Shown here: piece after piece, positions 8,146 to 45,329 of the stretch
How the letters are laid out: each line of letters starts with the position of its first letter
Numbering within the stretch: the stretch's first letter is position 1
DNA from: Phycisphaerales bacterium
GTDB taxonomy: Bacteria > Planctomycetota > Phycisphaerae > Phycisphaerales > UBA1924
Reading direction: 5' to 3'
DNA: 64,000 nucleotides
Assembly (NCBI GenBank): GCA_029260345.1
Contig: JAJDDK010000003.1
Location: forward strand, 1-64,000
The notes under the pieces: model-generated
Seen by the model: only the letters and a program-made list of their open reading frames with translations
Told to the model about the DNA's origin: nothing
Databases searched by the model: none
Program-made: the position numbers and the translations under genes

Positions 8146-8174
8146 AGTGATCGCCTCCAGTGCTCGAATCGAAG

Positions 8175-12353: not shown

Positions 12354-12359
12354 GTCCGC

Positions 12360-13790: not shown

Positions 13791-13792
13791 GC

Positions 13793-19093: not shown

Positions 19094-19139
19094 CACGTCG
19101 CTTCCTTCGTCACGAATCAGCGATCCGCGCCCGTTGGCG

Positions 19140-29473: not shown

Positions 29474-30672
29474 GCCGCCGACTGCTGTCGAGCTTTGCGG
29501 ATGCGTCGTTTCCATTGGCGATACTTCCCCCGAATGCGATCAAACTTGCCAAGCGACCACGCCGCGCGATACACGGTCAGCGCTATGCGTCCGCGCGCGC
29601 CGCATCCGGCGAACACGCGATCCACGTGATGCTCCTCGTTGCCCCAGTATTCCTTGTAGACGCCCTCGCCGGGGCCGAAATCAAAGAGCCTCTCGCCGTC
29701 ATTGCATGCGTCCGTCATCACGTCGATCAGTAACGCCTGGCCGATGGACATGGTCGACTTGAACTTTTCCTTGAACGCCGGCCACTCGTAATAGTGAACG
29801 CCATGCGCAACACCGGACACCACGAACGCGGCGTCCTCACCATCGAGTGACATGATCCATGCCTTCATCAATCCGACATCGGCGGCTGCGCGGATGAGCT
29901 TCTGAAAGAACGGATCGCACAGATACGCCCCGCCGCGCCGCTTCATCCAACTCGCGGCGTGAATCTCCGCACACCGATCGATCACCGCATCATCGAGCTG
30001 CGGACCGTAGAAATGCTCCACCTTGACTTCGTGCGCGTCATGCAGCGTCCGAAGCTTGCGCCGGAGCGACTGTCGCGACTTCGACGACTTGCGCTCATTC
30101 ATGAACTCTTCGAACGTCGCCGCCATCGCCGAGCATCGAACGATGTCCTTGTGCTCCCGGTGCATCGCCCAGCCGTTGGCGTCGAGCGTTTCGTAGAAGC
30201 GAGCCGTCGGCCCGTCCTGCGAGGACACATCGTTGTTCACAAAAAGACTGATGCGCCGGCTGCGCGACAGTTCCTGCGCCAGCGCTTCGGCGGCGCCAGG
30301 CGCATCATCGCGCTCCAGCACGCCGAGATAGGCGCCGCGACCAGCCCCGGCAGGAATGGCGTAACGCACACCGGCGATATTCCGCACCCGCAGCGGCAAC
30401 ATGCCGACGAGTTCGCCCGACCGGCGCAACGCCAGAATCTCCATCGAACCCTTGGCGCTCGGTGAAGCGCACCAACCTTCGCACCACACCCGCGCCATGT
30501 GAAAGGCGCTGTGCGAGGATTGCTCAAAGAGCGCATCCCACTCAGGTGCGAACCGTTCAAGCGCATCGCGTCCCACGATCCATTCGAAGGAATCAGACGC
30601 TGAATGTTTCACTCGTCGGTTCACGGTTTGGACGCTCTCGTTGACCTGTTCAGCCACGTCGATCGCCATCAC
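29470..30672 (-). CDS. GNAT_6/FemAB-like acyltransferase
   Basis: The 400-residue product has the two-lobed GNAT organisation of BioF2/CelD-like acetyltransferases. The first lobe includes EWDALFEQSSHSAFH and VGMLPLRVRNIAGVRY. The second includes SKSRQSLRRKLRTLHD, CAEIHAASWMKRRGG and GVHYYEWPAFKEKFKSTMSI, with DFGPGEGVYKEYWGNE near the end. Such proteins lie in many exopolysaccharide loci and are thought to acylate polymer precursors. The C-terminus is strongly basic (RQWKRRIRKARQQ). ATG at 30672 overlaps the sulfotransferase stop. Acyl donor and target are unknown. Confidence 0.78.
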   Translation of the reverse strand: MMAIDVAEQVNESVQTVNRRVKHSASDSFEWIVGRDALERFAPEWDALFEQSSHSAFHMARVWCEGWCASPSAKGSMEILALRRSGELVGMLPLRVRNIAGVRYAIPAGAGRGAYLGVLERDDAPGAAEALAQELSRSRRISLFVNNDVSSQDGPTARFYETLDANGWAMHREHKDIVRCSAMAATFEEFMNERKSSKSRQSLRRKLRTLHDAHEVKVEHFYGPQLDDAVIDRCAEIHAASWMKRRGGAYLCDPFFQKLIRAAADVGLMKAWIMSLDGEDAAFVVSGVAHGVHYYEWPAFKEKFKSTMSIGQALLIDVMTDACNDGERLFDFGPGEGVYKEYWGNEEHHVDRVFAGCGARGRIALTVYRAAWSLGKFDRIRGKYRQWKRRIRKARQQSAA

Positions 30673-31661
30673 GCGGCCTCCTGTCCGGCCATCTCACTCA
30701 GACGCCCGGATGGCGCGATGGCGGATGCGCCTTGCGGCGAATTCAATTCCTGATCCCAGCGACGCAGCGCACGCTTTACGCGACGCTTTCGGACCGCTCG
30801 ATATGCCACTCGTTCCGGCGCACTGCACACCAGAGATTGCGCTGCAAATCCAAATCGTGATGACGAACTCGCGCCAGCGCCATCGTTTTCAAGTGCGCGA
30901 ACCCAATCGCTCACGCGCCCGTCCAGTAATCCATCAAGCTCCTGCATCGGTGCGATCCACTGGCGCGACAGGTTTGCCCGCAAACCCAACGGCATCGAAA
31001 CCGCCGATGCGACAAGCTGCGCATTGGAATGCACTTTGCCATTGAGTATTGAATCCGAAGGTGACCACGATGCGTCCGCCCCGATGTGCCGCAAGATGCG
31101 CTTCAGAAGCGATGCTGGCTCGTCGCGAACGGACTCAAATTTCTCGACCAGCAAGGCGTCCTCGCCGAACACGTCAGTCCAGTTTCGGATCATCGGCGCA
31201 TAGTCGCTGAAGACGGTGGTTCGCGGGCTGAGGCAATACTGCAGAAGCCGCCATGACGGAATGCGCTTCGCCTCTTCACCTCGGCGAAACCCAAGTTCAT
31301 GCATCGCATTGGACCAGATTCGATCAACGGGCTGACGAATCAGCAGCACGAGCTTCGCATCCGGCGCCGTCTGCTTTACTTTTTCGATCAGTTCAACCGG
31401 CAACGCCGCATTGCGCGGGCTGATCTCGCCTCGGACCGGTTTCGCTTGTTCGCCCGCCGGCGGATCGAAGTGCGACAGATACCACGCGCGATCGTGTTTC
31501 ACGACGTTTTTGTCAAAGAAATCCAGTTGTTTCGGCGTGCTCATCTGAATCTCGGGATGTTCCGAGAGCACACGATGCAGCCATGTCGTGCCGCAGCGAG
31601 CCGAGCCAATGCCAAGAAACGTAGGAAGCATGATTCGTGTGAGTGCGCCGAGGCGCCTCAC
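30669..31661 (-). CDS. Sulfotransferase domain protein (heparan-sulfotransferase-like)
   Basis: Residues from MLPTFLGIGSARCGTTWLHR give the PAPS-binding loop, followed by SEHPEIQMSTPKQLDFFDKN, a sequence style shared with animal heparan sulfate N-/O-sulfotransferases. KLVLLIRQPVDRIWSNAMHE is the 3'-phosphate-binding helix. The 330-residue reading uses GTG at 31661 in a GTGA overlap; the ATG at 31631, ten codons later and right before the loop, is a realistic alternative. No export signal. It differs in subfamily from the 24471 and 27516 genes and groups by eye with the 34311-35270 product. Confidence 0.88.
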   Translation of the reverse strand: MRRLGALTRIMLPTFLGIGSARCGTTWLHRVLSEHPEIQMSTPKQLDFFDKNVVKHDRAWYLSHFDPPAGEQAKPVRGEISPRNAALPVELIEKVKQTAPDAKLVLLIRQPVDRIWSNAMHELGFRRGEEAKRIPSWRLLQYCLSPRTTVFSDYAPMIRNWTDVFGEDALLVEKFESVRDEPASLLKRILRHIGADASWSPSDSILNGKVHSNAQLVASAVSMPLGLRANLSRQWIAPMQELDGLLDGRVSDWVRALENDGAGASSSSRFGFAAQSLVCSAPERVAYRAVRKRRVKRALRRWDQELNSPQGASAIAPSGRLSEMAGQEAA

Positions 31662-32899
31662 TCACTCCCGTCCTGCGCTGTGGCGACGCTCTTCGCCGCC
31701 CGTTGGCGCCAGCCGCGACGAATGCGATTCGTCAATTCGCCACCGGCAAGCCGCTTTGCGGTCACGGCGCAAGCAACCGAAGCCCGATCCAGCGCACGAG
31801 CAACTTGCGCCCGCCATCCGGCGCCATAGATGTGCAGCGATGATTCATCCCACGACCGCGTGCCGTAGAGCCGCTTGTATTCGGCATCGCCGAAACCCCA
31901 GTCGATGCAGTGTGCGCCCTGATCGCACAAATCCTGCATGACGCGCATCATGAGCACCGTTCCCGGGCGCAGCGATTGATGTTCAGGAAGATATGCCGTG
32001 CCCTCGGCGTAGTACACGCCGCGATGCAGCGCGCCGGTCTGATATGCAATCGGCTCACCGCCGGCCATCAGCAAATACGCGCGCAGCTCACCATGCTCGG
32101 CGCGGCTCACCAGCGCCTTTCGCCAATCCACGTTTTCCATCTGCCCGCGTGCGATGCCCGCTTTGTACGTCTTCTCAAAAATGTCGTTCATCGCCTGGGC
32201 AAACGACTCTGCCTCCGCGGCCGTCGTCACGATGCGAAGTTCAACGTCATCATTGAAATGTGCGCACAGTTTGCGATCCAAACGGCGCAGATTGCTGCGA
32301 TGTTTGCTCGAATGCCCGCTCATCGTCTTGTCGTACGAGTGCGGCGTCAGATCCGTCACCCAGTGCGGACGCACTTCGCGGCGCACTGATCGTGCATCAG
32401 CGTCAAGCCGCTCCATCAACGCCCGGTCCAAATTGAGCTTGTTCGTGAAGACGCATTCAAATAGGCGTTCGTCAAGCAGCGACCGTAATTCATCAGCGAT
32501 CCGCGATTCAGCAGCGCCGTCGCCGTCAGTCACGACACCGCCGTAGATGAGCCGCAAGGTGCGCAGGCGAGGCGTGCGAATCCGGATATATCCAAGTTTG
32601 CATTGAATCCCGGCGCGCTCCGTTCGCCCGATCACAACCGCCCGCCCCAATTCGCCATCCTTGAAGAGAAGCACAAACGGTGACGCCGACCGCTGGATGG
32701 CCTCGAGCGTGTCGAGGAAACGAGACGGCTCAGCTCCCGGATGGGCGCCGCACGAACGATCAAGCACGGCGCGCCATTCCGACTCGATGCGCTGAATCGA
32801 GTCCACATCCTCACAACGAATGACGCGCCACTCACCGGTGGCGGAAGTCGTTGAAGGCCGTTCTGCATGCACAGCGCTCATGGGCGTCGCCTGCGTCAC
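31658..32899 (-). CDS. GNAT_6/FemAB-like acyltransferase
   Basis: The 413-residue product is the third twin-GNAT protein of the operon. Recognisable parts are RIESEWRAVLDRSCG, HSSKHRSNLRRLDRKLCAHF, MNDIFEKTYKAGIARGQ, PIAYQTGALHRGVYYAEGTA and HCIDWGFGDAEYKRLYGTRS, matching the BioF2/CelD-like pattern in which the acceptor helix bears SKxRxxLRR. It probably acylates a sugar amine. GTG at 32899 overlaps the Wzy-like stop as GTGA, six codons before an in-frame ATG (MSAVHAERP). Its pairing with adjacent sulfotransferase genes on one side mirrors the 29470 gene. Confidence 0.77.
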   Translation of the reverse strand: MTQATPMSAVHAERPSTTSATGEWRVIRCEDVDSIQRIESEWRAVLDRSCGAHPGAEPSRFLDTLEAIQRSASPFVLLFKDGELGRAVVIGRTERAGIQCKLGYIRIRTPRLRTLRLIYGGVVTDGDGAAESRIADELRSLLDERLFECVFTNKLNLDRALMERLDADARSVRREVRPHWVTDLTPHSYDKTMSGHSSKHRSNLRRLDRKLCAHFNDDVELRIVTTAAEAESFAQAMNDIFEKTYKAGIARGQMENVDWRKALVSRAEHGELRAYLLMAGGEPIAYQTGALHRGVYYAEGTAYLPEHQSLRPGTVLMMRVMQDLCDQGAHCIDWGFGDAEYKRLYGTRSWDESSLHIYGAGWRAQVARALDRASVACAVTAKRLAGGELTNRIRRGWRQRAAKSVATAQDGSE

Positions 32900-34314
32900 G
32901 CCGCCCCTCCATCACGGGCAAAGGTCGGCGCGCCCGGTTGACCCGTCCATTGCGATTCCGCGCGCTTGGCCACAACGCGCCGTCGACCGGCAATGGTCGC
33001 AGCCCGCTGCTGTTTGAGAAATGCCCTTTTGCCAGGCGCCAGGCTGGCGATCATCGCGACGTGAATGCCAAAGAGCGTCACGATTTGCCCGAAGTACGCC
33101 ACGGCGAGGAACGACGTCAGGTGGGCAAACATGCACGCGCCCAGCGCCCAGGCCATCGCGACCTGTGCTTTGTTCGGTTCGGCCAGTCGCCACAGTCGGC
33201 CCACGCCGCCAAACGCCATGACCATGATCCAGATTGCGAGCACGAGCGTCAGGAATCCGCCGCGGACACCTTCAAGGACGAAGTGATTCGTGATGTCAGT
33301 GAATCCCCAATTCGCCGTTGACGGCGTCCCGAACATCGCCCACTGGCTGAAGTTCTTGATCGCCTTGTCGATCACGTTGTAGCGATGCCACCCGGTGGAA
33401 CCGCCAATGAGGTCGGCGTACACGAACATGTGCCAAACCGGCTTGGTCTTGACGATCTGCAAGAAAATCAGCACCCCGAGGATGCCCCATCGCACGGTGC
33501 GCATTCGGTCGCGGAAGAAGAACATCCCACCGGCAAACGTCGCCGCCATGACGGCGACAAGCGGCGTGCTGGAAGCGCAAGCCCACGAAATAAAGAGCGC
33601 GACAAAGACCCCGATGATTGCAAGCCAGGTGTCAATCCCTTTCTTCCACCACAATGCGGCAAAGAGGGGCGCCATCGAGGCCCAGAACGCCCCGGCCAAA
33701 ATGGGATGTGCAAATCCGCCCTGTGCTCGAATTTCACCATTGCGAATCTGCGTGAGCGGTGGAATCCCGCCGAACGACGCGAAGTAATTTCGCGCCGTGA
33801 ATTTTTCGATCATAAACATGGCGCATACGGGAATGCCAATGATCACGGCGCCACGCACAAAAGTGAACACATCATCCCATGTTCTGACCAGCTGGCGGAA
33901 GAGAAAATACCCGCCTGCAATAGTCAGGAGCTGTCCCAACTGGACTGTAATGATGCTGGTTGTCTTGAAGAGAATGATCGGCGCTACAAATCCGGCGATG
34001 CACCATCCTGCAAAGACCGTGTCGGCGCCTTTCCATTTGAATCCGCGCGTTTCCAGTCGTGAGAACACACGCAGCCAGCCGAACACCACCAGCAGACGGA
34101 TAAAATCGAAATCCAGCGAGGCGATCACCACGCGCTGACGGGCGGCAAAGCATGCGAGGATGAAGAACGGAAGCACCGCAAACCGGCGCGGCGCCGCCAT
34201 GATCACGATGATCATCATCAGCAGCAGCGCAATGCCGATCGGCTGGGCGGTCGTCTGGTTCGCCCACCCGTCCGAACGCATCTTGATGTCTTCAAGTGCG
34301 AGCAGAAAACTCAT
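32896..34314 (-). CDS. Wzy-like O-antigen/exopolysaccharide polymerase
   Basis: A 472-residue polytopic protein with roughly ten to twelve membrane segments, for example IGIALLLMMIIVIMAAPRRF, TIAGGYFLFRQLV and FLTLVLAIWIMVMAFGGVG. The large loop with RNGEIRAQGGFAHPILAGAF is characteristic of the O-antigen ligase/polymerase (PF04932-like) family, and a later periplasmic loop holds NHFVLEGVRGG. It would polymerise the flipped repeat units. Polymerases share little sequence, so the role relies on topology, the GFAHP motif and the neighbouring wzx and wzc-like genes. A basic, disordered tail follows. The ATG at 34314 overlaps the preceding stop. Confidence 0.83.
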   Translation of the reverse strand: MSFLLALEDIKMRSDGWANQTTAQPIGIALLLMMIIVIMAAPRRFAVLPFFILACFAARQRVVIASLDFDFIRLLVVFGWLRVFSRLETRGFKWKGADTVFAGWCIAGFVAPIILFKTTSIITVQLGQLLTIAGGYFLFRQLVRTWDDVFTFVRGAVIIGIPVCAMFMIEKFTARNYFASFGGIPPLTQIRNGEIRAQGGFAHPILAGAFWASMAPLFAALWWKKGIDTWLAIIGVFVALFISWACASSTPLVAVMAATFAGGMFFFRDRMRTVRWGILGVLIFLQIVKTKPVWHMFVYADLIGGSTGWHRYNVIDKAIKNFSQWAMFGTPSTANWGFTDITNHFVLEGVRGGFLTLVLAIWIMVMAFGGVGRLWRLAEPNKAQVAMAWALGACMFAHLTSFLAVAYFGQIVTLFGIHVAMIASLAPGKRAFLKQQRAATIAGRRRVVAKRAESQWTGQPGAPTFARDGGAA

Positions 34315-35270
34315 TTTGACCACATCGACAAATCACGGCCGAGAAACTCGGCCAGGCGGCGATTCGGCTCCTCGAACTCACGAAGAAGCCGCGCCCTCGT
34401 TTCAGGCGTCAGTGGGCTGGGCTGATAACCACGCTTCAGGCGCTTGCCGAACGGAGAGTTCGTCAAGGCGCCGAGAGCGCGATCCTTGATCCCGTCCGGA
34501 ATCAGATGCTTGATCTTGTGATACCCCGGCGCCAGCCGCTTGATTTTGCGCAAGCGCTGACGGGCGAAGTCATCGCCGGCTTCGCCGATCGTGTTTGAGG
34601 CGATGGCGCCATCAGATGAGAGTTCGCGCACATCAACACCGATATGACGCTGCACCTGCTCCATCGCCGCGGCGGGGTCGCGTTTGAGATCGTCGAGAAG
34701 CACACAAAGGAGCGATTCGCGGGGGTAGCTCTCGAGATACTTCTCGATTTGCGTCATGTAGAGGCTGGTGTCGATGAACATCGGGTCCGCTTCAAGTGCT
34801 TCCTCAAACGTCCAGCGCGGCACATCGAGCCGCATGCGATGGCGGTAGTTCGAGTACGTGCGATCGACGGGATGCCGCATGATGTAAATCAGCTTTGCAT
34901 CGGGCACGATCTCGGCCATGCGCGCCGGCACATCGCCGAAATGCGGCCAGCGCGTGTATGTGGTCGATGCCTCACCGCATCGTTGATTCGCACTGGCCGG
35001 TGCGAAGAGCGCCTTGTAACTGTCCACGCCAAGCGCGTACCGATCATCCTTGCTGAAGAACTCCGGCTCTTTCGGCTCCGCCATAAACACGTCGGGATGA
35101 CGGCGCAAGTACTGCCACAGGGTCGTCGTGCCGCTCTTGCTGGCGCCGATGATGATGAAGTCCGGCAGTCGACCGGCGCCGGCGGTTTTCGCGGCGCGCA
35201 TGCCGCTGAAACGCATCGGCGTGTCGTGCGTCGCGGCGGGCGATTCAAGATGTGAATCCGGAGCCGTCAT
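34311..35270 (-). CDS. Sulfotransferase domain protein (heparan-sulfotransferase-like)
   Basis: The 319-residue product has the PAPS loop DFIIIGASKSGTTTLWQYLR followed by RHPDVFMAEPKEPEFFSKDD, and the 3'-phosphate segment KLIYIMRHPVDRTYSNYRHR. This order and wording match the Sulfotransfer_1/heparan sulfate sulfotransferase type. The C-terminal PLTPETRARLLREFEEPNRR is also typical, with a terminal LGRDLSMW. The protein should be cytoplasmic and sulfate a sugar of the repeat unit. It begins two bases after the previous stop and overlaps the Wzy gene by four. Confidence 0.92.
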   Translation of the reverse strand: MTAPDSHLESPAATHDTPMRFSGMRAAKTAGAGRLPDFIIIGASKSGTTTLWQYLRRHPDVFMAEPKEPEFFSKDDRYALGVDSYKALFAPASANQRCGEASTTYTRWPHFGDVPARMAEIVPDAKLIYIMRHPVDRTYSNYRHRMRLDVPRWTFEEALEADPMFIDTSLYMTQIEKYLESYPRESLLCVLLDDLKRDPAAAMEQVQRHIGVDVRELSSDGAIASNTIGEAGDDFARQRLRKIKRLAPGYHKIKHLIPDGIKDRALGALTNSPFGKRLKRGYQPSPLTPETRARLLREFEEPNRRLAEFLGRDLSMWSK

Positions 35271-35272
35271 AC

Positions 35273-36199
35273 TCAGACCGCTTGCTTCATGGGAGCTGGC
35301 GCCGGCGCGGCGTTCGTTGCGTCAGGCGCTTCATCGAGATATCCGAAAGCTTCAAGCAAATGACCGACGCGTTCGAGGCACAATGCCTGCTCGTCCTCAC
35401 TGAGATCACGCTTCCAGCGCGCCACGGCCGACCCGTACAGCGGCTGACGCACTTCGGGATTGACGATCTCCATGTCCTTGCGCTGTTGCTGGCGCGACTC
35501 GCGATCAAGAATCTCAGGCGACCAGTCAACACGGCAGTGCGCGCAGATGCGTTTGGTCGTCGATTCATAGTCTGCGATCAGGTCTTCATAGCGCACTTCC
35601 ATGTAGCGCTCATCGCCGCGGTGCGCGATGCCTGCTTCGACGTAGCGCTTCCATTGATTGATGCACTGGCTGATCGGGCGGTTGATGTTGGTGGGCACAT
35701 ACTCATCGCCGACGCGCTTGCGTTTGGGATGGTGGCGCAGCGAGCAGGCGACATCGCGGCCGTCGCGCACAATGTGAATCACTCTGGCTTTCGGGAAGCG
35801 CTGCCAGATCCAGTCCAGGCGCAGGATGTTCCGCGGGCTTTTTTCGCACCAGATCGGGCGATTCTCTCGAATCCGGTAGGCGTCCATGAATCGATCGATA
35901 AATTGTGCGAGTGACTTTGAGTCACGCATCAAGTCGCGGACGAACGATGGCTCAAAGCCGTATTCCTCGGCGAGCCAGTCCGGCTTGACTTTATAGACAA
36001 AGACCCACGATTCAGGGCCCGCGGCGATCTCCGGGTGGCTGTCGAGTGTGGCGCGCAGCAGCGTGGTGCCGCTTCGATCGCATCCGCCGACGATGATGGG
36101 TGATTCGTCGGAGGTGTACGGCGCGCGCACCCAGGGCGTGGCGTAGTAGAGCCGCAATCCCGGCTCGAAGCGCTTACGAAATCGCTTGAGCGGATTCAT
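35273..36199 (-). CDS. Sulfotransferase family protein
   Basis: The PAPS loop reads [20 protein letters not shown], then [15 protein letters not shown]; the 3'-phosphate helix is [40 protein letters not shown] is a hallmark of this bacterial sulfotransferase group. The 308-residue reading starts at [14 protein letters not shown] (36199), which has AAAGGA five bases upstream; it overlaps the acyltransferase gene by 26 bases. Longer versions from 36223 or 36304 lack similarity. It is a tandem neighbour of the 34311 sulfotransferase but belongs to a different subgroup, suggesting a distinct acceptor position. Confidence 0.9.
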
Positions 36200-36989
36200 C
36201 AGTGTCCTTTGCGGATTCGACATTGGAATGATCGGAACACGTGGAGTCTGCCGGCATCGTGCACGCCTCGCGAAGCAGCGGATGCCAGCTTGGTGAATCG
36301 TCAATCTCGCGCATCATCTCTGGGAGACATTCAATTACCTCGGGAAGCGAACGCTCCCACCATCGCGATTTCTTAATGATCTCGATGGCGCTTTCCGGAT
36401 ATCGCGAGCGAATGACCCGAGCCGGATTGCCGCCAACGATGGCGAAATCAGGAACATCCTTGGTCACCACAGCGCCCGCGCCAATCACGGCGCCATCACC
36501 GATGTAACGGCAGCGCGGCAGGATCATCGCGTGGTCGCCGATGTACACATCACTGCCAATCCGCAGTCCGTCCTTTGGCTCTGCGAGCCGCGCATCGCGG
36601 CCGACCGGACCGACGCGAGGGTTGTAAAAGAACGGATGCTGCGAGAGCCATCCAAACGGGTGATTCTCGCTGTAGAAGTGGCTGTAAAGCGAGATTGTTG
36701 TGTATCGACCGACCGTTGTGCCTCTCGGCAAGACGCCCGGCCGCAGGCAACCGGCGTAGCTGTACTCGCCGACGGTGACGCCGTGAAACTTTCGCTGGAT
36801 CTCGCGGCGGGTGTGTGAAAAATACTCACCGCCCTCAAGTCGGCGGGCCCACTTTCGAATCAGGCGCCGAAGCGGGTGAATCTTGTACAGCTTCAAAAGC
36901 GCGGGCGACAGCGCACTGCGCGAGCTCGCCACTTTCTGTCGGGCCCACTCCACGTGCTTTGCTCTTGATTGGTCGCTGGAATCCTGCAC
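36174..36989 (-). CDS. Hexapeptide-repeat (LbH) O/N-acyltransferase
   Basis: The 271-residue product is a CatB/NodL-like trimeric acyltransferase. A helical N-terminus ([20 protein letters not shown]) precedes left-handed beta-helix turns ([59 protein letters not shown] and [11 protein letters not shown]). NHPF provides the usual active-site His. It would transfer acetyl from acetyl-CoA to a sugar. It is clearly paralogous to 38133-38825, with a longer C-terminal tail ending in AQAIS. It starts at GTG (36989), three bases after the previous stop, with GGAG upstream. Confidence 0.88.
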
Positions 36990-36992
36990 GAT

Positions 36993-38108
36993 TCAATTGA
37001 CTCCTGCGGTGGCTCGCTCCGGTTCAGCGGGCGCTGCTGACTCGGCGCTGTATGTCCATTGCATCGGCATCGACGCTGCCGGCGATTCAAATCGGCGCGT
37101 GCGCTTCAGAATTCGCTTCGCCGTGCGGCGAGCCCACTGCCTGAGCGATCCCCCAACGGCGGACAAGGACGCGATCTGCACCGCGGTGCGGCGCCACAGA
37201 CCCGGCGATGGATCTTCAAGCGCGTAATCAAATCGACGCATCAGGGTCTTCGTGCGCTGCTCGACCAGCGCAATCGTGGTGCGGCTGAGCCCCGTCTTGT
37301 ATTTGGCCGTGTTGTCCGACTGCACGGGCTTGGCGAGATTGCCCCAGTACGACGGGTGCCGATCCGCAGCGTCTTTCGCAGCCTTCTGTTCATTAAACGC
37401 CAGCATTGCCCCGTCGAAATCCACACCGAGAAATCCGCACAGGCTCGTCAGCACTCGTTCAGTGGATGTCACCAGATCCTCGTAGCGCTGGAGATGAACC
37501 CGTTCAGGGCCGAGCGCCGAGGCAAGATTCAGCGCGCCATGCTGATCATCCGTCCAGACATCGAGCGCGGCCGGCACGCTTCCGTAATGAGTGAAATAAC
37601 GCCCCGCCTTGATGCAGGAAAGCGCGTAATCGCGCGGATCGCGCACCTGAACGACAAAGCGAGCGTTCGGATAGCAGGCCAGGTAGAAACCGAGATCCTT
37701 GTGCAGATGCGTTTCCTTCAGCGCCAACACTGGCTTGCTGCACTGCTGAAGCGATCGGTCGTACACATAGCGATACAGCGCCTCAAACGTTCGTTCGCGA
37801 GGCCCTTCGCGCAACTCTTCTTCAGTGAACAGAACGTCGAGCGCGCCTTTGGTGCTCTCCATCTGCTTGATCGCATCACCCACGAGCGCGGCCCATGCTT
37901 CATCCCGCTGCAAGTCGCCATAGCGGTGCAAGCGCTTCGCAAGCGTTCCGCCGAGATGAACCGGCATTGGCGCATGAATCTGCGGGTGCGCGTCGAGCAT
38001 GGCGCGCAAGAGATTCGAGCCGGATCGCTCTGAGCACACAAGAAAGACAACTTCAGTGCCGGATTGCCGCTCGCCTTGGTGCATCGCTGATTTGGGGGAA
38101 ACCATCAT
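36993..38108 (-). CDS. Sulfotransferase family protein
   Basis: The PAPS loop is VVFLVCSERSGSNLLRAMLD, followed by AHPQIHAPMPVHLG; ARFVVQVRDPRDYALSCIKA is the 3'-phosphate-binding segment. LKETHLHKDLGFYLACYP and the C-terminal KPVQSDNTAKYKTGLS are typical of bacterial Sulfotransfer_3-like proteins. The protein has 371 residues and no export signal. Translation may start at 38108 or the adjacent ATG at 38105. It is the most 5' sulfotransferase of the operon and lies between two paralogous hexapeptide acyltransferases. Acceptor unknown. Confidence 0.88.
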   Translation of the reverse strand: MMVSPKSAMHQGERQSGTEVVFLVCSERSGSNLLRAMLDAHPQIHAPMPVHLGGTLAKRLHRYGDLQRDEAWAALVGDAIKQMESTKGALDVLFTEEELREGPRERTFEALYRYVYDRSLQQCSKPVLALKETHLHKDLGFYLACYPNARFVVQVRDPRDYALSCIKAGRYFTHYGSVPAALDVWTDDQHGALNLASALGPERVHLQRYEDLVTSTERVLTSLCGFLGVDFDGAMLAFNEQKAAKDAADRHPSYWGNLAKPVQSDNTAKYKTGLSRTTIALVEQRTKTLMRRFDYALEDPSPGLWRRTAVQIASLSAVGGSLRQWARRTAKRILKRTRRFESPAASMPMQWTYSAESAAPAEPERATAGVN

Positions 38109-38132
38109 CGAGTCAGTGATTGAATAGGGCCG

Positions 38133-38825
38133 TTATGCCGCACATCGCTGGATTGACTGAAGAGGAAGGCGCGTGAGCGGCTGTTCGATGACATCGCCAT
38201 ACTGGCGAAGCTCTTCCATGGAGAGCTCCCACCATTTTGATTGGAGCACGGCATGCTGAATGTCCGGATGAAATCGGAAGCGAATGAACTTGGCCGGGGC
38301 GCCGGCGACAATCGCGAAGTCCGGCACATCTTTGGTCACCACTGATCCTGCCCCGACCACAGCCCCGATGCCGATGCGGTGGCAGCCGGCGGTGATGATC
38401 ACGTTCTCTCCAACCCACGCGTCGTGCTCAATGCGCAATGTTGATTCCTCAACCTTGTCGCTTTGCACGACGCCTAGATTTCGATTGAAGAAAAACGGAT
38501 GCGTGGAGAGATGATCGAGCGGGTGGTCGCGCAGGAAGACGCGGACGCCTTGCGCGATTGAGACGTAACGACCAATGGACACGCCGCGCGGCATCGCGCC
38601 GGGACGCATGCACCGACCGCCGTAGCTGTACGCCCCCACTTCCACACCGTGGTAGTGATTGAGAATTCGGCGCACGGTCTTGGAATGAAATCGATTGCCT
38701 TCCGTTCGCAGTGCCCAGCGCAGTGCAAAATTGCGCAGCGCGTGAATGCGATACAGGCGAAACATGAGTCGGCCCATGGTCGATTCACGCGCCCCGTGCA
38801 GTGCTTTTTCATCAAACGTATTCAT
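38133..38825 (-). CDS. Hexapeptide-repeat (LbH) O/N-acyltransferase
   Basis: A 230-residue CatB/serine-acetyltransferase-like protein. The helical lead RLYRIHALRNFALRWALRTE and the beta-helix blocks GVEVGAYSYGGRC, RGVSIGRYVSIAQG, HDAWVGENVIITAGCHRI and [20 protein letters not shown] are shared with the 36174-36989 product, so these are paralogues separated by one sulfotransferase gene. DHPLDHLSTHPFFF carries the probable catalytic His. It should acetylate a hydroxyl or amine of the repeat unit. ATG at 38825 overlaps the flippase stop as ATGA. Confidence 0.88.
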   Translation of the reverse strand: MNTFDEKALHGARESTMGRLMFRLYRIHALRNFALRWALRTEGNRFHSKTVRRILNHYHGVEVGAYSYGGRCMRPGAMPRGVSIGRYVSIAQGVRVFLRDHPLDHLSTHPFFFNRNLGVVQSDKVEESTLRIEHDAWVGENVIITAGCHRIGIGAVVGAGSVVTKDVPDFAIVAGAPAKFIRFRFHPDIQHAVLQSKWWELSMEELRQYGDVIEQPLTRLPLQSIQRCAA

Positions 38826-40318
38826 AGCGATGGCGCCGCCGGCATGTTGCGTTTGGCGCCGCGCATGGAGCGGAGCCGCTCCATGACATGGCCGCCGTCG
38901 TTGATGAGCAGTTCGCGAAGTTCACGGAAGGGAAGAATCGAAATCGCTGCAGCGATCACCGACGCCAGCAGCGTGGCGCCGATAATGAGCAGGACGCCAT
39001 GGTCGGCGGATCCGAAGTAGAAGAAGGCGCCGGCAATGGCGAGCGCCGCGCACGCCGCGAGCGTCGGCCCGGCGGTCCCCCACCAATTGAGTTTGTGCTT
39101 GAAGTGCATGATCGCTGTGGCCACGCTCAGCGCGATCAGTTCGCCCACGAAGCCAGCCGAAGCGATCCAAGCAAGCGACATACCCTGCCACGCCACCACC
39201 ACCAGAATGAGGAGCGACACGGTGCGCGCCAGATTGGTGTACATGAGCTGGCGGCTGTCCGCCCATGCAAAGCCGGCGATCGCAGGCATCGTTCGGATGA
39301 TGCGGAGCGTCTGCATCGCGCTGAGCCATCCGATGAAGAGTGCGACGCCGGCGTACTTTTCACCGTAGAGCGTCGTCACGATAAGCGTTCCCGCCGTGAT
39401 GAAGATGACGCCAATCACCGCGGCAATGGCGCCGGAGATCTGGGCGCATAACCGATAGCGCGAGTTGAACAGCGCCTTGTCATCCTGCGCCGCGGAAAGG
39501 ATCGGCAGCAGCAGAGATGAACTGACGCGCGTCAGCATCTGTCGCGGCGTCGTGATTAGCGTCAGCGCCACTGAATACACACCCAGATCCGCCAGTGTAT
39601 ACGGCGAAAACTTCGACCCGATCACCAACCGATCACCCTGCATGATGATGAACATGAGGAATCCGTTGATCATCAGCGGCCAGCCAAAGCCGAGCAGTCG
39701 TCGCAAATACGACTGGTCGTACGCGATGCTCCAGCGCCGTTCCGCCAGCACATGCGTGAATGACGTATAGACGAACGTCTGAATGATCAGAATCCAAAGC
39801 GCAGCGCGGTAGTCACCGAGCCACAAACCGATCGGTACGGCAATCGCCACAGCGACCGCTTGTGAAACGAGGTCAACCACGACGAATGGCTTGAAGTTCA
39901 TGCGTCGCTGCACACGGCGCATGTCGAGGTGAGCGAGGCCGCGCAGGAGTGGAATGAGCGCCAGCCACTGGAAGGCCCAGGCTGCTTCCGGAGCGCCAAA
40001 CAGACCGGCGATCGGCTGCGCAAAGACGATCAGGATCACGGCGCCAAACACGCCTCGCATCAACTGGAACAGGTGCATGACCTGTTGCAGGCGTTCGTCG
40101 TCGCCGTCCTTGGCCTGCACTTGCAGCTTGTCGGCGGCGACTTCGCTGACGGACTGCAGCAGCGTCAGTGTGATGATGAACGTCGCCGCGACGCCGAAGT
40201 CTTCGGGCGAAAGGATGCGCGCAATGATGATGTTGCGGACCAGCGCCAGCACTTTGCCGACGGCCGACCCGGCGCTCAACAGCGCGCCGCCCTTCAAGAC
40301 TTTCTTCTTCAGTCCCAC
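38822..40318 (-). CDS. Wzx-like lipid-linked oligosaccharide flippase
   Basis: A 498-residue MOP-superfamily protein with about 12-14 membrane helices. The N-terminus MGLKKKVLKGGALLSAGSAV and LALVRNIIIARILSPEDFGV is characteristic of polysaccharide-synthase/flippase proteins (PF13440/PF01943), followed by DMRRVQRRMNFKPFVVVDLV and RLLGFGWPLMINGFLMFIIM. It would move the undecaprenyl-linked repeat unit across the cytoplasmic membrane for the Wzy polymerase. It is the first gene of the 29-gene train; 117 bases with a terminator separate it from the beta-helix gene upstream. Confidence 0.92.
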   Translation of the reverse strand: MGLKKKVLKGGALLSAGSAVGKVLALVRNIIIARILSPEDFGVAATFIITLTLLQSVSEVAADKLQVQAKDGDDERLQQVMHLFQLMRGVFGAVILIVFAQPIAGLFGAPEAAWAFQWLALIPLLRGLAHLDMRRVQRRMNFKPFVVVDLVSQAVAVAIAVPIGLWLGDYRAALWILIIQTFVYTSFTHVLAERRWSIAYDQSYLRRLLGFGWPLMINGFLMFIIMQGDRLVIGSKFSPYTLADLGVYSVALTLITTPRQMLTRVSSSLLLPILSAAQDDKALFNSRYRLCAQISGAIAAVIGVIFITAGTLIVTTLYGEKYAGVALFIGWLSAMQTLRIIRTMPAIAGFAWADSRQLMYTNLARTVSLLILVVVAWQGMSLAWIASAGFVGELIALSVATAIMHFKHKLNWWGTAGPTLAACAALAIAGAFFYFGSADHGVLLIIGATLLASVIAAAISILPFRELRELLINDGGHVMERLRSMRGAKRNMPAAPSL

Positions 40319-40342
40319 GATTTGAGATCGGTTGCCAATGCG

Positions 40343-40376
40343 AAAACGGATCCATCCCCGAACAGGGATGGATCCG
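40343..40376 (-). terminator. Intrinsic terminator between the beta-helix gene and the polysaccharide operon
   Basis: On the minus strand CGGATCCATCCC (40376-40365) pairs with its exact complement at 40358-40347 around a six-base loop, followed by TTTTC. The stem is 12 bp and perfect, but the T run is only four long. It lies 59 bases after the beta-helix stop and 25 before the flippase start. Unless a promoter is hidden in those bases, transcripts must read through it to reach the operon. Confidence 0.78.
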
Positions 40377-40435
40377 CGAGATCGTTCATCGTTTGGTGCG
40401 TTTCATGAGCGGAGCGATCGCTCTCTCGTTCCGAA

Positions 40436-43400
40436 TCAGTTCTCAGCCGAAGCGAGCGCGCCGATCGCGGCGGATTCGCCCACCGGCTGATTCTCGGCAT
40501 CCGCCGGCGCCAGCGGAGTCTGGACGCGATTCGTCAGGATGGAGCCCGGCTTGGGCTTGAAGTTGTGGCTCGCCGGATTCACGAAGAGCGTCTGATACGT
40601 GCCGCCGGTCGTGGCGCCTTGGCCAGCGGCCTGCGAACCGAATGAATCCATGTCGATGTAGTGGTTGTTCATCGCCCAGCTCTGGTCCGACATCGTCGGC
40701 GCCACACCGGAGTGATTGATCTTGAGCGAATTGACCACACTGTTGCGAAGGCTGAAGTTGGTGATCCACGTCGCTTCTTCCGCCTGGCCGCCGTCACGAA
40801 TGACGAACGACTGGTTGAGCACCGTGTAGTTCCAGAAGAGGACGTGGTCGGCCGGGTCGCCCCATTGTGCGCCGCCGCCGCCCGTCGAATTGCTGATGTA
40901 GTTCACGACGGCAAAGTCGCGATGCATCGGGGCGCCGGTCGCAATGAAGAAGCTCTGTCCGGCCACATTGTCCACTGCCTTCAGGCCATAGATGATGATG
41001 TTCTCAAACGGGTCACTGCCCTGCGGGCCGTAGAACTGCATGAGGTCATTGTGCGTGCCGTCAACATTGACGAGGTCGCGCACTTCGGTGTTGATGGCGA
41101 GGCCGCGCATTTCGCGGAACGCGTCGCCGCCGCAATTCGTAATCAGAGCGCCACGAGTGAATTCGCCCTCGCGGACGGCGCGGCGGAGATTGTCATAGTG
41201 AACGTCCGTCGAGAAGAGGCCACCCGTCCACTGCGAACCTCGGATCGAGGCGGATCCATCAGTCGGATCAGCTCCCTGAAGAACAATGTTGTCGATCCAC
41301 AGCCGGTTGTACTGACTGGACGTGCCGCCAGGAACCGTGGTGCTGTACACCGTGAGATTGCGCAGGTGCACAAGGCTCGCCCGGATGCCGCTGCCCGGCG
41401 AAGACGTGATGCGAGCCGCGGATTTCGGCTGGCCCGGGGCGCCCGCGATCGTGATCCAGCGATTCGTCGTCGTCACGCCGGAACCGAAGCTCGTTTGCTC
41501 GTACGCATAATCGCCGGGCTTCAGGTAAATCGTTGCGCCATCACACGCGCCTTCGCTGGCCTGCACCTGCTCAACGGCGTGCTTGATCGTCTTGAACGGG
41601 TTGCCTTGCGTTCCCGTGCCCGATTCATCGTTGCCATTTGCGGCCACCCAGCGAATCGGTTCATTGAGCGTCCCGCCTGCGTTTGCATTCAGGAACATTG
41701 AGAACTGGCCGCGGATGCGCGCATCGTTCAGGCCCATGTTGATCGGACCCGCAAGCACGCGCGGCAGGCCGGTGTTCGGATACGCGATCGCGCGCACTTC
41801 GACCAAGCCGTCATCGTCGAATTCATCGGCGTCGAGCTTGACGACGTATTCCCACACACCAGTGCGCTCGTTCAATGTCATTTCATAGACGGACGCCCAC
41901 GGTCCGCCGTCCACACTGAATTCAACGCGGTCAATGCCGTTGATATGGAAGGCGACTACACCGATCGGGAACTCGTCGTCGAACGTCTGGAATGGAACGA
42001 CGTCCCAGCGCGCAATTGCTTTCGCGTCGGCGCCCGGTCCCGAACCGATCGGCGCCGGTTGCGGCGTCGCTGTTGCAAAGCCAGCGCCAGGAATCAGCAA
42101 TGGCGCCGGGCCATTGATGTTCGGCTGGTTGTTGCCGGAGCCTTCATCAGGCTGGTCATCCACCGGCGGATCAGGTTGTTCGTCATCGCCGCCGCCGTCG
42201 TCGGAACCTCCGGGCGGCGGGTTTTGACCGCCACCGGGATTCGTCACGGGGTCATCGTCGTCGTCATCCTCCGGCGGGGGCGGCGGCGTGTTGTCGTCAT
42301 CGTCGTCGTCGGACGCCGGTGGATCAGGCAGATCATCGTCCGGCGCATCAATCGGCGGATCGGGCTCGAGGTCCGGCTCGCCATTGTTGTCCGAACCGAA
42401 GTTCTGATCGATCGGATCGTCCGGCGTGTCGTCGACCGGCGGATTCGCAGGCGGCGTCTCCGGTTCGATCACCACTGGGGGCGGCGTTGGCGCCGGATTA
42501 TTGTTTTGATCGTTTCCAGACGGACCCGAATTATCGCTCGGCGTCGAAGGCGTTGAGGGAGCGGGTTCGCTCGACCAATCAGTGTCGCCGGATTCCGCGC
42601 CTTCCGAAATCATTTCAGGCAGCGGCTCGTCATCAATGGCGGTCCAGGCGCCGTTCTGCTCGACCAACACCCACATGTTGTCGGGAGCGCCGGCGATCTT
42701 GAAGACCCGATCCACATCCATGGTCGGAGATTGATTCGTGTTCGCTCGCGAGCGGCGGCTCAAGCCAGTCGCGCTGGCCGTCGACTGACCGATCACGCTT
42801 GGCATCTGCATCACGACAAAATCAAGCTCTGCCATCAGGTCGCGATAGGACCCTGCTCGCGCGCCAAAAGACTCCGGCGGCACAAAGTTTTCAATCGTCA
42901 ACATGGCGCCGGGGCGTTCGGCGCGAATGCGATCCAAGATATCCACGAGCGCATCTTCAATATCACGCTCGTAATTAAGACGACCGAGGCGCGCCTTGTT
43001 TCGATCAATCGCGGCGCCATTCATATCAAGCAGCGCGCCGGTGGTGTTGGGCGACGTGGTTGAACGTCGTCGCGCGCTGTTGGAGGAATCGGACTGCACG
43101 GTGACGGACGCAAAGTCCGCCGCGAGCGGTCGCCATGCGGCGGGAAGCTGGCGCAACTGAATGATGTAAGGCGTCGTCGGATCGTCCATTTCCGCGATGA
43201 CCTGATTTGCAATGGCTTGCCGCGCCGCACTGGTGTGATTGGACCAGGCGAGGTCGTATGCAAGGAGGTCTGTGGAGAGCTGGACCTTCACGGTGACCGG
43301 GGACTTGACCTGTGCGGTCTCCATACCGGACGCCGCATGCGCGGAAGCGGCAAGGCCTGCGGCGCCGGCGATGGCTAGAGCCGCACTAAGAGCGCCTGCT

Positions 43401-43462
43401 TGAAGTCCGAGTCGAAGTCGTGGTGTTGAGTTCATTGTGGGGCGGGCGTTGCGATTGAGCAT
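40436..43462 (-). CDS. Large secreted right-handed beta-helix protein with an acidic Asp/Pro linker
   Basis: The start MLNRNARPTMNSTPRLRLGL has a GAGGTG ribosome-binding site six bases upstream and leads into a signal peptide (cleavage near SAHAAS). The product has 1008 residues. Residues about 300-450 are a Pro/Asp/Gly-rich linker with runs of four to six aspartates. About 470-590 looks Ig-like (GIDRVEFSVDGGPWASVYEM). From about 605 on, RWVAANGNDESGTGTQGNPF, KTIKHAVEQV and ATIYLKPGDY open a parallel beta-helix of the pectate-lyase/DUF1565 type. No VPxP tail is present. Acting on the matrix polymer as a lyase, epimerase or binding protein is plausible but unproven. It lies between the NusG-like gene and the operon. 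Confidence 0.82.
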   Translation of the reverse strand: MLNRNARPTMNSTPRLRLGLQAGALSAALAIAGAAGLAASAHAASGMETAQVKSPVTVKVQLSTDLLAYDLAWSNHTSAARQAIANQVIAEMDDPTTPYIIQLRQLPAAWRPLAADFASVTVQSDSSNSARRRSTTSPNTTGALLDMNGAAIDRNKARLGRLNYERDIEDALVDILDRIRAERPGAMLTIENFVPPESFGARAGSYRDLMAELDFVVMQMPSVIGQSTASATGLSRRSRANTNQSPTMDVDRVFKIAGAPDNMWVLVEQNGAWTAIDDEPLPEMISEGAESGDTDWSSEPAPSTPSTPSDNSGPSGNDQNNNPAPTPPPVVIEPETPPANPPVDDTPDDPIDQNFGSDNNGEPDLEPDPPIDAPDDDLPDPPASDDDDDDNTPPPPPEDDDDDDPVTNPGGGQNPPPGGSDDGGGDDEQPDPPVDDQPDEGSGNNQPNINGPAPLLIPGAGFATATPQPAPIGSGPGADAKAIARWDVVPFQTFDDEFPIGVVAFHINGIDRVEFSVDGGPWASVYEMTLNERTGVWEYVVKLDADEFDDDGLVEVRAIAYPNTGLPRVLAGPINMGLNDARIRGQFSMFLNANAGGTLNEPIRWVAANGNDESGTGTQGNPFKTIKHAVEQVQASEGACDGATIYLKPGDYAYEQTSFGSGVTTTNRWITIAGAPGQPKSAARITSSPGSGIRASLVHLRNLTVYSTTVPGGTSSQYNRLWIDNIVLQGADPTDGSASIRGSQWTGGLFSTDVHYDNLRRAVREGEFTRGALITNCGGDAFREMRGLAINTEVRDLVNVDGTHNDLMQFYGPQGSDPFENIIIYGLKAVDNVAGQSFFIATGAPMHRDFAVVNYISNSTGGGGAQWGDPADHVLFWNYTVLNQSFVIRDGGQAEEATWITNFSLRNSVVNSLKINHSGVAPTMSDQSWAMNNHYIDMDSFGSQAAGQGATTGGTYQTLFVNPASHNFKPKPGSILTNRVQTPLAPADAENQPVGESAAIGALASAEN
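42115..42570 (-). repeat. Low-complexity acidic coding segment (Asp/Pro/Gly/Asn-rich linker)
   Basis: Inside the beta-helix gene, about 150 codons encode mostly D, P, G, N, E and S, with runs such as ASDDDDDDNTPPPPPEDDDD. At DNA level it is a degenerate GAC/GAT/CCG triplet repeat. Acidic linkers of this type bind calcium in some secreted proteins; here that is only a guess. Length variation between strains would be expected. Confidence 0.8.
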
Positions 43463-43784
43463 GGGAAGCACCTCGCGAGCGTTCGATCGAGCATGCGACA
43501 CGGACCGGAGGACGTTCCGGTAGCGGCGCACACAAGCTGCGATCGACCATTGGGAGGCCCCCTTGAATCGCGACGTCTGAATGTCGTTAACTCCTTTACC
43601 AACCATCTCTTCTATCCGTTCTTGTTTCTCTGATCGCTGATCCAGGCACAGTCGTTGAGGCTGCACCAGGCAGTGATGAATCCACCGATCTCAAGTTGCA
43701 AAGAGGACAAAACGCCACAACGCATCAGGGTCGCCGTTTGACTGAGTTCGTATGGTAGAGAAAGCGGTTCGCTCGTTCCGATAA

Positions 43785-43801
43785 CCTGATTTCAAATCAG
43801 G
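43785..43801. promoter_or_regulatory. Perfect inverted repeat upstream of the beta-helix gene
   Basis: CCTGATTT and AAATCAGG form 8-bp arms around a single central base. The short centre disfavours a hairpin and favours a dimeric protein-binding site. It lies 110 bases downstream of the NusG-like gene stop and about 320 bases before the beta-helix start. The surrounding 43463-43910 stretch (448 bases) holds no convincing gene; a small GGGGC/GCCCC stem at 43893-43909 has no T run. No ops or JUMPstart match is visible by eye. Confidence 0.4.
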
Positions 43802-43910
43802 GGAAACCATCCGCGACAGGCAGACTTCGTCCCCGTCGCGCGCACGCCGAGAATCGGCGGCCGGCTCAGAAACAACTCATACGGCTGGGTCAGGGGCCGG
43901 AAACGCCCCG

Positions 43911-44495
43911 TCAATCAACCGGTTCGAGCAGGCTGGCGTCGATTTCGAGGCCGACCGCTCTGCCGAGCGCATCAACCTTCAAAATGAGCCGATCCTGCCG
44001 CGTTCGAACATCGACCACTCCCTCGACCCCCTTAAAAGGGCCGCCGGAAACGCGTACGTGTTTCCCGCATTGAAGGAATGGATATGGGTCCAGCACGGCG
44101 CTGCCTTTGAGGGCGCACCGAATCTGCTCGAGTTCATGGACCAAACAATCCTGGTCTGGCGCCTCGATTACCTGGGCGACTCGCTTGGTGCCGACCGCGA
44201 ACCATGCCTCTTCCCGAGCCCCCTGAATGAACACATAGGAAGGGAAGAGCGGCCGCTCGACAATCCTCTTGCGGTGACCGTAAATCTTTGTTTCACGGAT
44301 AGTAGGGAGAAAATGCCGGATTCCGGCGGCGCCGAGCACATCCCGCACCGCTTTCTCCTGCCGAGGGCGCGTGTGCAGGACACGCCAAGGCCGAGCGGCG
44401 TCCGCGGTAATCGGACCGCCAAAGCCATCACAGGAATCGCCCTCCCCGGGCTCTGCCGAGGGTCGGTTCGTCTCAATAAGGATGGGCTGGCCCAT
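43911..44495 (-). CDS. NusG-paralogue antitermination factor (RfaH/UpxY/LoaP type)
   Basis: The 194-residue product has a NusG N-terminal domain (WRVLHTRPRQEKAVRDVL, then HFLPTIRE, RPLFPSYVFIQG, VAQVIEAPD) and a C-terminal KOW domain (CGKHVRVSGGPFKGVEGVVD). RFLPTI-like and PLFPSYVF patterns are the RNA-polymerase-clamp-binding part. A dispersed location beside a long exopolysaccharide operon, instead of next to secE and ribosomal genes, marks it as a specialised paralogue. Such factors suppress pausing and termination in long surface-polysaccharide operons. AGGAG lies just before the ATG. It is the nearest regulator upstream of the 33-kb operon and is transcribed in the same direction. Confidence 0.9.
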   Translation of the reverse strand: MGQPILIETNRPSAEPGEGDSCDGFGGPITADAARPWRVLHTRPRQEKAVRDVLGAAGIRHFLPTIRETKIYGHRKRIVERPLFPSYVFIQGAREEAWFAVGTKRVAQVIEAPDQDCLVHELEQIRCALKGSAVLDPYPFLQCGKHVRVSGGPFKGVEGVVDVRTRQDRLILKVDALGRAVGLEIDASLLEPVD

Positions 44496-44702
44496 CTTTC
44501 TCCTGCCCTCAAGCCTGCTGGCGGCGTAACGAACGACTCATCACGCACCGGAGGCGTCCAGACTCCCTGCCACGCGGACGATCCGTACAGAATGATCGGA
44601 CCATCCCGCGTCTCCCATGAGGGTACGCAGCAAATCAGAGCGGCGTTCGGTGTGAACGCACTGGAGATGACGAATGTTTTCGGGCCTTCGACCGAATTTG
44701 GC

Positions 44703-45311: not shown

Positions 45312-45329
45312 TCGTGACGCTCCAATGGA

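Follow-up and report, generated by a model that had tools for sequence, protein, structure and literature searches.

The question that this locus raises is whether the specialised NusG paralogue encoded beside a long exopolysaccharide operon carries RNA polymerase through that operon and, if it does, at which sequence it is loaded. The window, by which we mean the whole stretch of 64,000 nucleotides (nt) analysed, covers positions 1-64000 of contig 3 (134.6 kb) of a Phycisphaerales genome of 3.40 Mb in total. Along the minus strand it codes for an alpha/beta hydrolase, an FKBP protein, a short unknown protein and the NusG paralogue, which are followed by a leader, a large gene, a terminator-like hairpin and the operon (Table 1). 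Inside the leader we identified a 28-nt candidate loading element; an earlier note on this DNA had suggested a search for such an element in 43463-43910 and had missed it. Processive antitermination on the operon is well supported by comparison, as the element that lies between the paralogue and the operon is conserved, covarying and strand specific. It is likely that a factor of the UpxY/RfaH type loads there and carries RNA polymerase through the terminator and the operon, recruitment and readthrough being the steps that we infer.

The product of the paralogue gene is a specialised member of the NusG/Spt5 family beside a separate housekeeping NusG. There are two NusG-family genes in the genome, of which the copy on contig 5 scores 78.5 bits and the copy in the window 50.8 bits. 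As the earlier note proposed, the protein has an NGN and a KOW domain: Pfam NusG matches with 49.3 bits (cut-off, 22.2), and KOW falls slightly below its cut-off (20.3 versus 22.3 bits) and is clear in the structural model. The likeness to RfaH, UpxY and LoaP proposed in the same note holds in part. UpxY (NF033644) is the top-scoring and thereby the nearest curated family of NCBIfam, with 90.5 bits and a cut-off of 100, and the scores for RfaH (TIGR01955; 59.7 bits, cut-off 144.5), NusG (42.4 bits, cut-off 135.7) and LoaP (NF033641; 35.4 bits, cut-off 125) are also below the curated values. The models of UpxY, RfaH, and LoaP are each matched by all 65 aligned orthologues (E ≤ 0.001), and a profile built from these orthologues retrieves NusG (7e-16) and RfaH (1.7e-10) from the PDB. 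The AlphaFold2 model (mean predicted local distance difference test [pLDDT] score of 88.2) consists of an NGN domain and a KOW domain predicted as a five-stranded beta-barrel (block pLDDT of 88-96), without the alpha-hairpin of free RfaH, a prediction that is compatible with fold switching. Top Foldseek matches are NusG and RfaH-polymerase structures, with whole-chain template modeling scores of 0.26 to 0.45 in the first 20; such low values are expected, as NGN and KOW are two mobile domains. A paralogue with a beta-barrel KOW beside a long operon fits the RfaH homologues described in the 2026 preprint PMC13015549, which have a beta KOW and are encoded by genes adjoining long operons. A scan of named genomes with the single protein gave no matches, and an alignment-based scan succeeded, with relatives mostly in Planctomycetota, many of them titled Phycisphaerae or Phycisphaerales.

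The element was derived from a first set of 61 genomes (our own included), 16 of which have a close orthologue of the paralogue (E < 1e-27). Nine of those loci share the order of paralogue, leader of about 450 to 1,000 nt (about 450 nt in the window) and large first gene, and all nine leaders hold the pattern TGCGCGCGAC-RKGG-C-GAAG-YC with 0 to 4 differences, 65 to 140 nt past the paralogue stop codon, in leaders that otherwise align poorly overall. Homologues of the large first gene come after the NusG paralogue in several relatives, and the conserved order is factor, element, first gene and polysaccharide genes. With one mismatch allowed, the 61 genomes gave six matches, five of them adjoining the paralogue, and a reversed control gave none (the pattern was derived from these same loci). 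Our own genome has a single copy at 0 to 1 mismatches. A candidate with two mismatches (C6:405298) was rejected, as it lies inside what we read as an apparent coding gene.

We then extended the comparison to 400 genomes of the order, in which 65 genomes have an orthologue at an E of ≤1e-20 (69 genes) and which added 53 further stretches. In these new orthologue loci, the 22-mer of the nine loci was found out of sample in 13 of 53 with at most two mismatches, always 58 to 81 nt past the stop. A 28-column weight matrix trained on 35 matches and applied to both strands of the 69 loci (1.5 Mb) gave 48 sites of at least 15.8 bits, in 48 different loci and all on the strand of the paralogue, the best minus-strand site having 15.6 bits. 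Counting L038, which has 12.4 bits, ranks under four minus-strand sites and was included for its place and stem, the element is present in 49 of the 69 orthologue loci. It lies 19 to 214 nt past the paralogue stop in 42 loci, upstream of the paralogue in five (L040, L046, L093, L100, and L116) and farther downstream in two (L041, at 12.5 kb and 248 nt ahead of a gene, and L130, at 3.7 kb). According to a simple gene caller, the elements are intergenic, except that of L081, which overlaps the start region of a long open reading frame (ORF) call. Among 38 further named loci (copies removed), the full matrix found the element in 11, all on the same strand, and with a second matrix (see below) the number rose to 19 (18 past the stop plus L213, upstream), some of them near relatives. 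Neither matrix found an element in loci L230-L243 (n = 14, other phyla included).

All these elements follow one plan, a conserved upstream block (YGC...YGAC) and then a mini-hairpin, GG-RC-GRA-GY-CY-G, with an upstream block that varies between subclasses. The second subclass has TTGAC in this block, and a reading of it as a -35 promoter box was set aside, because the corresponding letters in the first subclass are CGAC and because the stem shows covariation. In a first count of 57 elements, the pair 3:9 was G-C in 41, A-T in 14, C-G in 1 and G-T in 1, with at least 10 changes on the tree. This count leans toward pairing, because the 35 matrix seeds had been chosen for it, so we repeated the search with a pairing-blind matrix that omits the six outer stem columns (1-3 and 9-11), with a threshold of >10 bits and a distance of ≤260 nt past the stop, and the repeat replaces the first count for the covariation claim. 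It was passed by 60 of 106 loci (42 of 68 orthologue loci and 18 of 38 further named ones), and the best score on the other strand of the same stretch in the 69 loci was 7.9 bits. The reduced matrix is unspecific over whole loci (79 plus-strand and 34 minus-strand sites of >10 bits), and only its concentration after stops is used. Among these 60 elements, the pair 3:9 is G-C in 44, A-T in 14, C-G in 1 and G-T in 1, and the pair 2:10 is G-C in 52 and A-T in 8. Position 3:9 is thus Watson-Crick in 59 of 60, compared with a mean of 36.5 and a maximum of 48 in 10,000 shuffles (which ignore relatedness), and it has changed at least nine times on a tree that includes 51 of the 60 rows.

Other properties of the hairpin were taken from the 57 elements. 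The pair 3:9 has the highest mutual information (0.83 bits), narrowly above that of two neighbouring upstream-block columns (0.81 bits) that mark the element subclass. The pair 4:8 is C-G in all 57, and the loop it closes is GGA in 34, GAA in 21 and AAC in 2; the outermost pair, 1:11, is G-C in 28, G-T in 20, A-T in 1 and unpaired in 8. Position 11 is a pyrimidine in 57 of 57, and position 12 is G in 39. In a hairpin scan with register controls, 31 of 64 plus-strand matches of the true register fall within 260 nt past the stop, compared with 0 or 1 for five shifted registers, and the minus strand has 33 matches. A subclass with A-T at 2:10 (TAGC-GGA-GCTT; L177, L194, L207, L208, L211, L217, L220, and L221) was seen in the pairing-blind search only.

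The link of the element to polysaccharide loci could be followed where paralogue and element are apart. A clade of 11 genomes has the paralogue without a nearby element, and two far strict-pattern matches are found there, in G380 and G399. In G380, the element is followed by a 1,074-amino-acid gene and by homologues of the operon genes at 32896 and 17629 and of the exosortase, DUF3485, AAA-type and sugar transferase genes; in G399, the same large gene follows at the end of the stretch, and G291 has a copy of the element with one mismatch. The N-terminal part of the G380 gene is present in 4 of the 11 genomes (G380, the source of the query, G399, G291, and G314), and in all four an element lies about 570 to 605 nt ahead of the matched stretch on the same strand, the copy in G314 being weaker (20.7 bits). 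The elements in this clade were searched for with a 27-mer derived from G380 and G399 themselves, the G314 element was found not with the 27-mer but with the matrix on a 7-kb stretch, and the seven clade genomes without the G380-type gene were searched with the 27-mer only (≤3 mismatches). In this clade, then, the element precedes a polysaccharide-type gene elsewhere in four genomes, and antitermination is supported for this reason too. In addition, G090 has a second element ahead of another large gene and flippase, and two paralogues are encoded in each of the genomes G271 and G394, one accompanied by a TGCGCKCGAC element and the other by a CGCAGTTGAC element. Distant strict matches in G101, G130, and G348 overlap called genes and were taken as chance. 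Over the 400 genomes the strict pattern has 81 matches, 29 of them near one of the 69 orthologues and all 29 on the strand of the orthologue. The remainder occur at the same rate in the 65 genomes with an orthologue (9 matches) and in the 335 without (43 matches), which gives no sign of a large regulon.

From these data, the following course of events can be proposed. The gene immediately ahead of the target would supply the paralogue. While it transcribes the leader, RNA polymerase would slow at 43818-43845, where the non-template strand exposed in the bubble could fold into a stem (GG-RC/GY-CY) with a GRA loop, and the conserved block just upstream would be duplex again, next to the polymerase. 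The paralogue would read the hairpin loop and the upstream block, bind the polymerase, exclude the housekeeping NusG and remain bound. Modified in this way, the polymerase would pause less and terminate less often, whether at intrinsic or at Rho-dependent sites, on its way over the untranslated leader, the first gene, the terminator-like hairpin (40347-40376) and the 33-kb operon; in the absence of the factor more transcripts would end after the first gene. Of this scheme, comparison shows the genes, the element with its strand, position and covariation, its association with polysaccharide loci and the hairpin class, and we propose binding, pausing, a hairpin of DNA and not of RNA, the exclusion of NusG and readthrough.

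The hairpin itself was described in the earlier note as a 12-base-pair (bp) stem between the large gene and the flippase gene. The stem is perfect, with 100% complementary arms and a 6-nt loop; the distance from the stem to the flippase GTG (40318) is 28 nt and not 25. The other ten inverted repeats in 39800-46500 (arms within 40 nt) are 9-nt palindromes, shuffled versions of the window have an expected count of 0 for the hairpin motif, and the RNA of the 117-nt intergenic region folds better than 197 of 200 shuffles. The minus-strand tail, TTTTCGCATT, has only four T, so the hairpin is not listed by a standard terminator scan, which needs five of eight and which found no excess of sites over shuffles (10 versus 11.0). 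The class to which it belongs appears to be real. In the 69 loci, 15 hairpins have a score of at least 11 and at least four T, and 13 of them lie within 120 nt past a stop codon of their own strand. Such positions account for 34.6 of 1,510 kb, and none of the hairpins is in a called gene, although several of the 13 represent one site shared between near relatives. As these sites are concentrated after stops, they behave as terminators in this group. Of the usual marks of an intrinsic terminator, a G+C-rich stem and a T tract after it, the hairpin shows a 12-bp stem and four T, with the class test in favour. We examined 17 loci with a large first gene, of which 16 could be judged (window included), and a hairpin with a score of at least 9 follows that gene in seven (window, L033, L045, L047, L084, L096, and L109), with unrelated sequences. 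The leader of the window has no T-tailed hairpin of a score of at least 8.

Several observations weigh against this interpretation. A T-tailed hairpin follows the first large gene in only 3 of the 16 loci (window, L033, and L045) and is missing in 13, so that the internal terminator, plausible as it is, is not a constant part of the system. Because of this, of the short T tract and of the presence of a Rho gene in the genome (RfaH-type factors also oppose Rho), the terminator as a switch, which the earlier note had put forward, goes beyond the evidence, and what stands of that proposal is antitermination on the operon and a putative intrinsic terminator of a credible class that has the same slot in some relatives. 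With Rho encoded, Rho-dependent termination in the long untranslated leader would be a second possible target. With DNA parameters, the core of the window's own element forms a weak hairpin (-0.2 kcal/mol). No element reaches the threshold in 20 of the 69 loci: 12 in one clade, L039, L042, L043, and L112 in another, and L119, L125, L133, and L044; the low-scoring candidates in L119 and L125 were not counted, and the L044 stretch is cut off at the gene. In L092, L101, L103, and L104, an opposite-strand gene separates the element from the operon, so that about 1 kb of antisense sequence would lie in the path of a polymerase that had taken up the factor at the element. The 52 off-target strict matches exceed the 21 that we counted in the reversed control, which means that the control is not stringent enough or that some of the other matches are real. 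As to the clade test, the large gene of G380 is only weakly like the first gene of the window (E of 0.72 for the whole protein and 1e-4 over 31 residues), and the following genes were checked in G380 only.

Two alternatives concern the hairpin. The structure at 40347-40376 could terminate only part of the transcripts and thereby fix how much of the first gene is expressed relative to the exopolysaccharide enzymes, with the factor acting mainly against Rho and pausing along the operon and not against this terminator, and we hold this to be a real possibility, if somewhat short of an even chance. The four-T tail, the absence of a T-tailed hairpin from 13 of the 16 comparable loci and the Rho gene all agree with it, as does the rather low efficiency of RfaH against intrinsic terminators given in a review (PMC7819879). 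Against it speak the clustering of hairpins with four T just past stop codons in these genomes, the re-use of the slot with different sequences in L033 and L045 and the readthrough of hairpin terminators that LoaP promotes. An operon promoter after or around the hairpin, which would make the hairpin the ordinary end of the first gene's transcript, is improbable. Start sites within 40318-40436 would be compatible with it. A standard scan of 38000-50000 listed no sigma-70-like site for the minus strand, which is weak evidence against it, as the scan finds fewer sites than shuffles do and planctomycete promoters may differ; the conserved order of factor, element, first gene and polysaccharide genes also speaks against it.

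The other two alternatives concern the nature of the element. It could act as an RNA hairpin, with the nascent GRA-loop hairpin binding the paralogue off the polymerase and the complex then joining the polymerase, as with LoaP and the UNCG hairpin of dfn. RNA parameters gave better folding than DNA parameters for each of seven 12-mers (common for any hairpin), the G-T wobble at 1:11 in 20 of 57 elements suits RNA, and LoaP offers a precedent, in which deletion of the 10 nt that directly precede the hairpin also costs activity (PMC12691694). A C-G closing pair with a GNA loop is a type known for very stable DNA mini-hairpins. The scarcity of G-T at 3:9, with a single case in the 60 pairing-blind elements, points the same way, and the constant pyrimidine at position 11 and the frequent G at position 12 set the stem in the register of an ops-like, pause-type sequence. 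Stronger RNA folding and the tolerant outer pair favour RNA, the pause-like register and the near absence of G-T at 3:9 favour non-template DNA, and we consider the RNA version rather unlikely. Still less credible, and in our view very improbable, is that the element belongs to the 3' end of the paralogue mRNA, as a terminator, a stability element or an autoregulatory site, and has no role for the operon. Its usual place shortly after the paralogue stop, the four loci where the next gene is on the other strand and a TTTT within 12 nt in 5 of 57 elements would fit such a feature. It is at odds with the five loci where the element is upstream of the paralogue, with the four genomes of the other clade where it precedes a different gene and with the lack of TTTT within 12 nt in 52 of 57. 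Loading of the paralogue at the element during transcription remains the reading that we prefer.

Seen in this way, the system resembles several known ones. As given in PMC5995543, E. coli ops reads G1 G2 C3 G4 G5 T6 A7 G8 ... T11 G12, RfaH is no longer recruited in vitro when G4, G5, A7 or G8 is changed, the pause is induced by TG at 11-12, and the residues of RfaH that read ops include K10, H20, R23, Q24 and R73. The planctomycete core has the same letter or class at G1, G2, G5, A7, G8, Y11 and G12, keeping G5, A7 and G8 and having C at position 4 and R at position 6, in a register chosen by eye, so the likeness is suggestive. Shared with RfaH are the NGN and KOW paralogue, the long surface-polymer operon and a 12-nt element with a hairpin in a pause-type sequence. 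Unlike ops, whose loop G4-A7 is closed by C3:G8, the planctomycete element has a GRA loop closed by C4:G8, a longer covarying stem and the extra conserved upstream block, and unlike RfaH, the KOW domain is predicted as a beta-barrel and the gene is mostly beside its target.

Like UpxY of the Bacteroides capsular polysaccharides, the gene adjoins the surface-polysaccharide operon that it presumably serves, and several factors may occur per genome, each with its own element subclass (G271 and G394). UpxY is said, in 2024 work by Saba, to read exposed non-template DNA and the upstream duplex, and if so, the planctomycete element could be a variant of UpxY recognition. The differences are the score below the UpxY cut-off, the other phylum and the position of the element after the factor gene in most loci. 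The upxY gene is the start of a capsule-type operon with the terminator in the leader before it; in the window the paralogue adjoins the operon, and element and terminator-like hairpin come after the gene. With LoaP of Bacillus (dfn/mln leader) it has in common a specialised NusG paralogue, a leader hairpin, intrinsic terminators and a long operon. The LoaP hairpin is described as a UNCG-type RNA of the dfn leader in PMC12691694, unlike the conserved planctomycete hairpin with its GRA triloop (57 elements; other hairpins were not screened for UNCG). JUMPstart (Rfam RF01707), a conserved element of polysaccharide operons named in PMC2864571, is similar as a conserved 5' element of such operons. 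No Rfam family, JUMPstart included, matches 43400-44900 at an E of up to 5, and none matches the window at gathering scores. JUMPstart includes ops.

We did not find a recruitment element of this kind described in planctomycetes in the open literature (subscription papers being outside the search). With somewhat less than even confidence, we suggest that planctomycetes have their own ops system with a two-part code, in which a covarying non-template C(GNA)G mini-hairpin is shared and the upstream block separates paralogues of the same genome (YGCGCKCGAC versus CGCAGTTGAC in G271 and G394). If true, a hairpin-in-bubble code would exist far from the phylum of RfaH, and reading folded non-template DNA would be general to specialised NusG proteins. 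The LoaP RNA hairpin has been worked out since Wang 2020, and a candidate recruitment element with covariation can now be put beside it for planctomycetes. How specialised NusG proteins choose their operons can now be tested on a system of one small protein and 28 nt of sequence, and the element may serve as a marker for large planctomycete polysaccharide operons.

Table 1. Features of the window discussed in the text
Feature	Coordinates	Strand	Remarks
NusG paralogue (NGN + KOW), nearest UpxY	43911..44495	-	194 amino acids; Pfam, NCBIfam, AlphaFold2, Foldseek
Conserved candidate loading element, 28 nt, GTGCGCGCGACGGGGACGAAGTCTGCCT	43818..43845	-	67 nt past paralogue stop
Upstream conserved block, TGCGCGCGAC, possible upstream-duplex contact	43835..43844	-	Column counts over 57 elements
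12-nt hairpin core of element, GGACGAAGTCTG	43821..43832	-	Stem covariation; ops-like layout
Remainder of untranslated leader, element to next gene	43463..43817	-	No Rfam match
Large secreted-type protein gene ("beta-helix" of the earlier note)	40436..43462	-	First gene past element; start codon inferred
Terminator-like hairpin with TTTT tail	40343..40376	-	Arms 40347-40358 and 40365-40376
Exopolysaccharide/exosortase operon	7378..40318	-	29 genes, 32.9 kb, flippase first; ORFs, gaps, Pfam

The operon, put at 33 kb in the earlier note, is borne out by 29 co-directional genes from the flippase to a nucleotidyltransferase, with intergenic gaps of at most 132 nt (start sites as called) and a 645-nt gap after the last gene. 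Its Pfam content comprises glycosyltransferases, an exosortase, DUF3485 (EpsI type), an AAA/ParA-type gene that we read as Wzc-like and a sugar transferase. The product of the large first gene has no Pfam or NCBIfam match, and "beta-helix" is kept for it as a name only; its start is probably the ATG at 43462 (preceded by GAGGTG) rather than the GTG at 43666.

Some minor observations can be added. In the paralogue clade of L039, L041, L042, L043, and L112, the gene has no adjoining element (the candidate of L041 being the one 12.5 kb downstream), and the next gene in the first four is a homologue of UDP-glucose dehydrogenase. The intervening opposite-strand gene of L092, L101, L103, and L104 codes for a sulfotransferase. 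In L033 (5457-6456), a stretch of the leader is present twice, with other sequence between the copies. In the last 100 nt ahead of the large first gene of L034-L037, an upstream CACTCCTC or CACTCTTC can pair with the ribosome-binding site GAGGAGTG, possibly a translation switch, which was not seen in the window. Within the operon, the exosortase and DUF3485 genes are found at 16059-17647 (minus strand), and six sulfotransferase-type, three GNAT/FemAB-type and two deacetylase genes (Pfam) are interspersed in 23737-38108 on the same strand, a mixture that suggests a sulfated, N-modified polymer.

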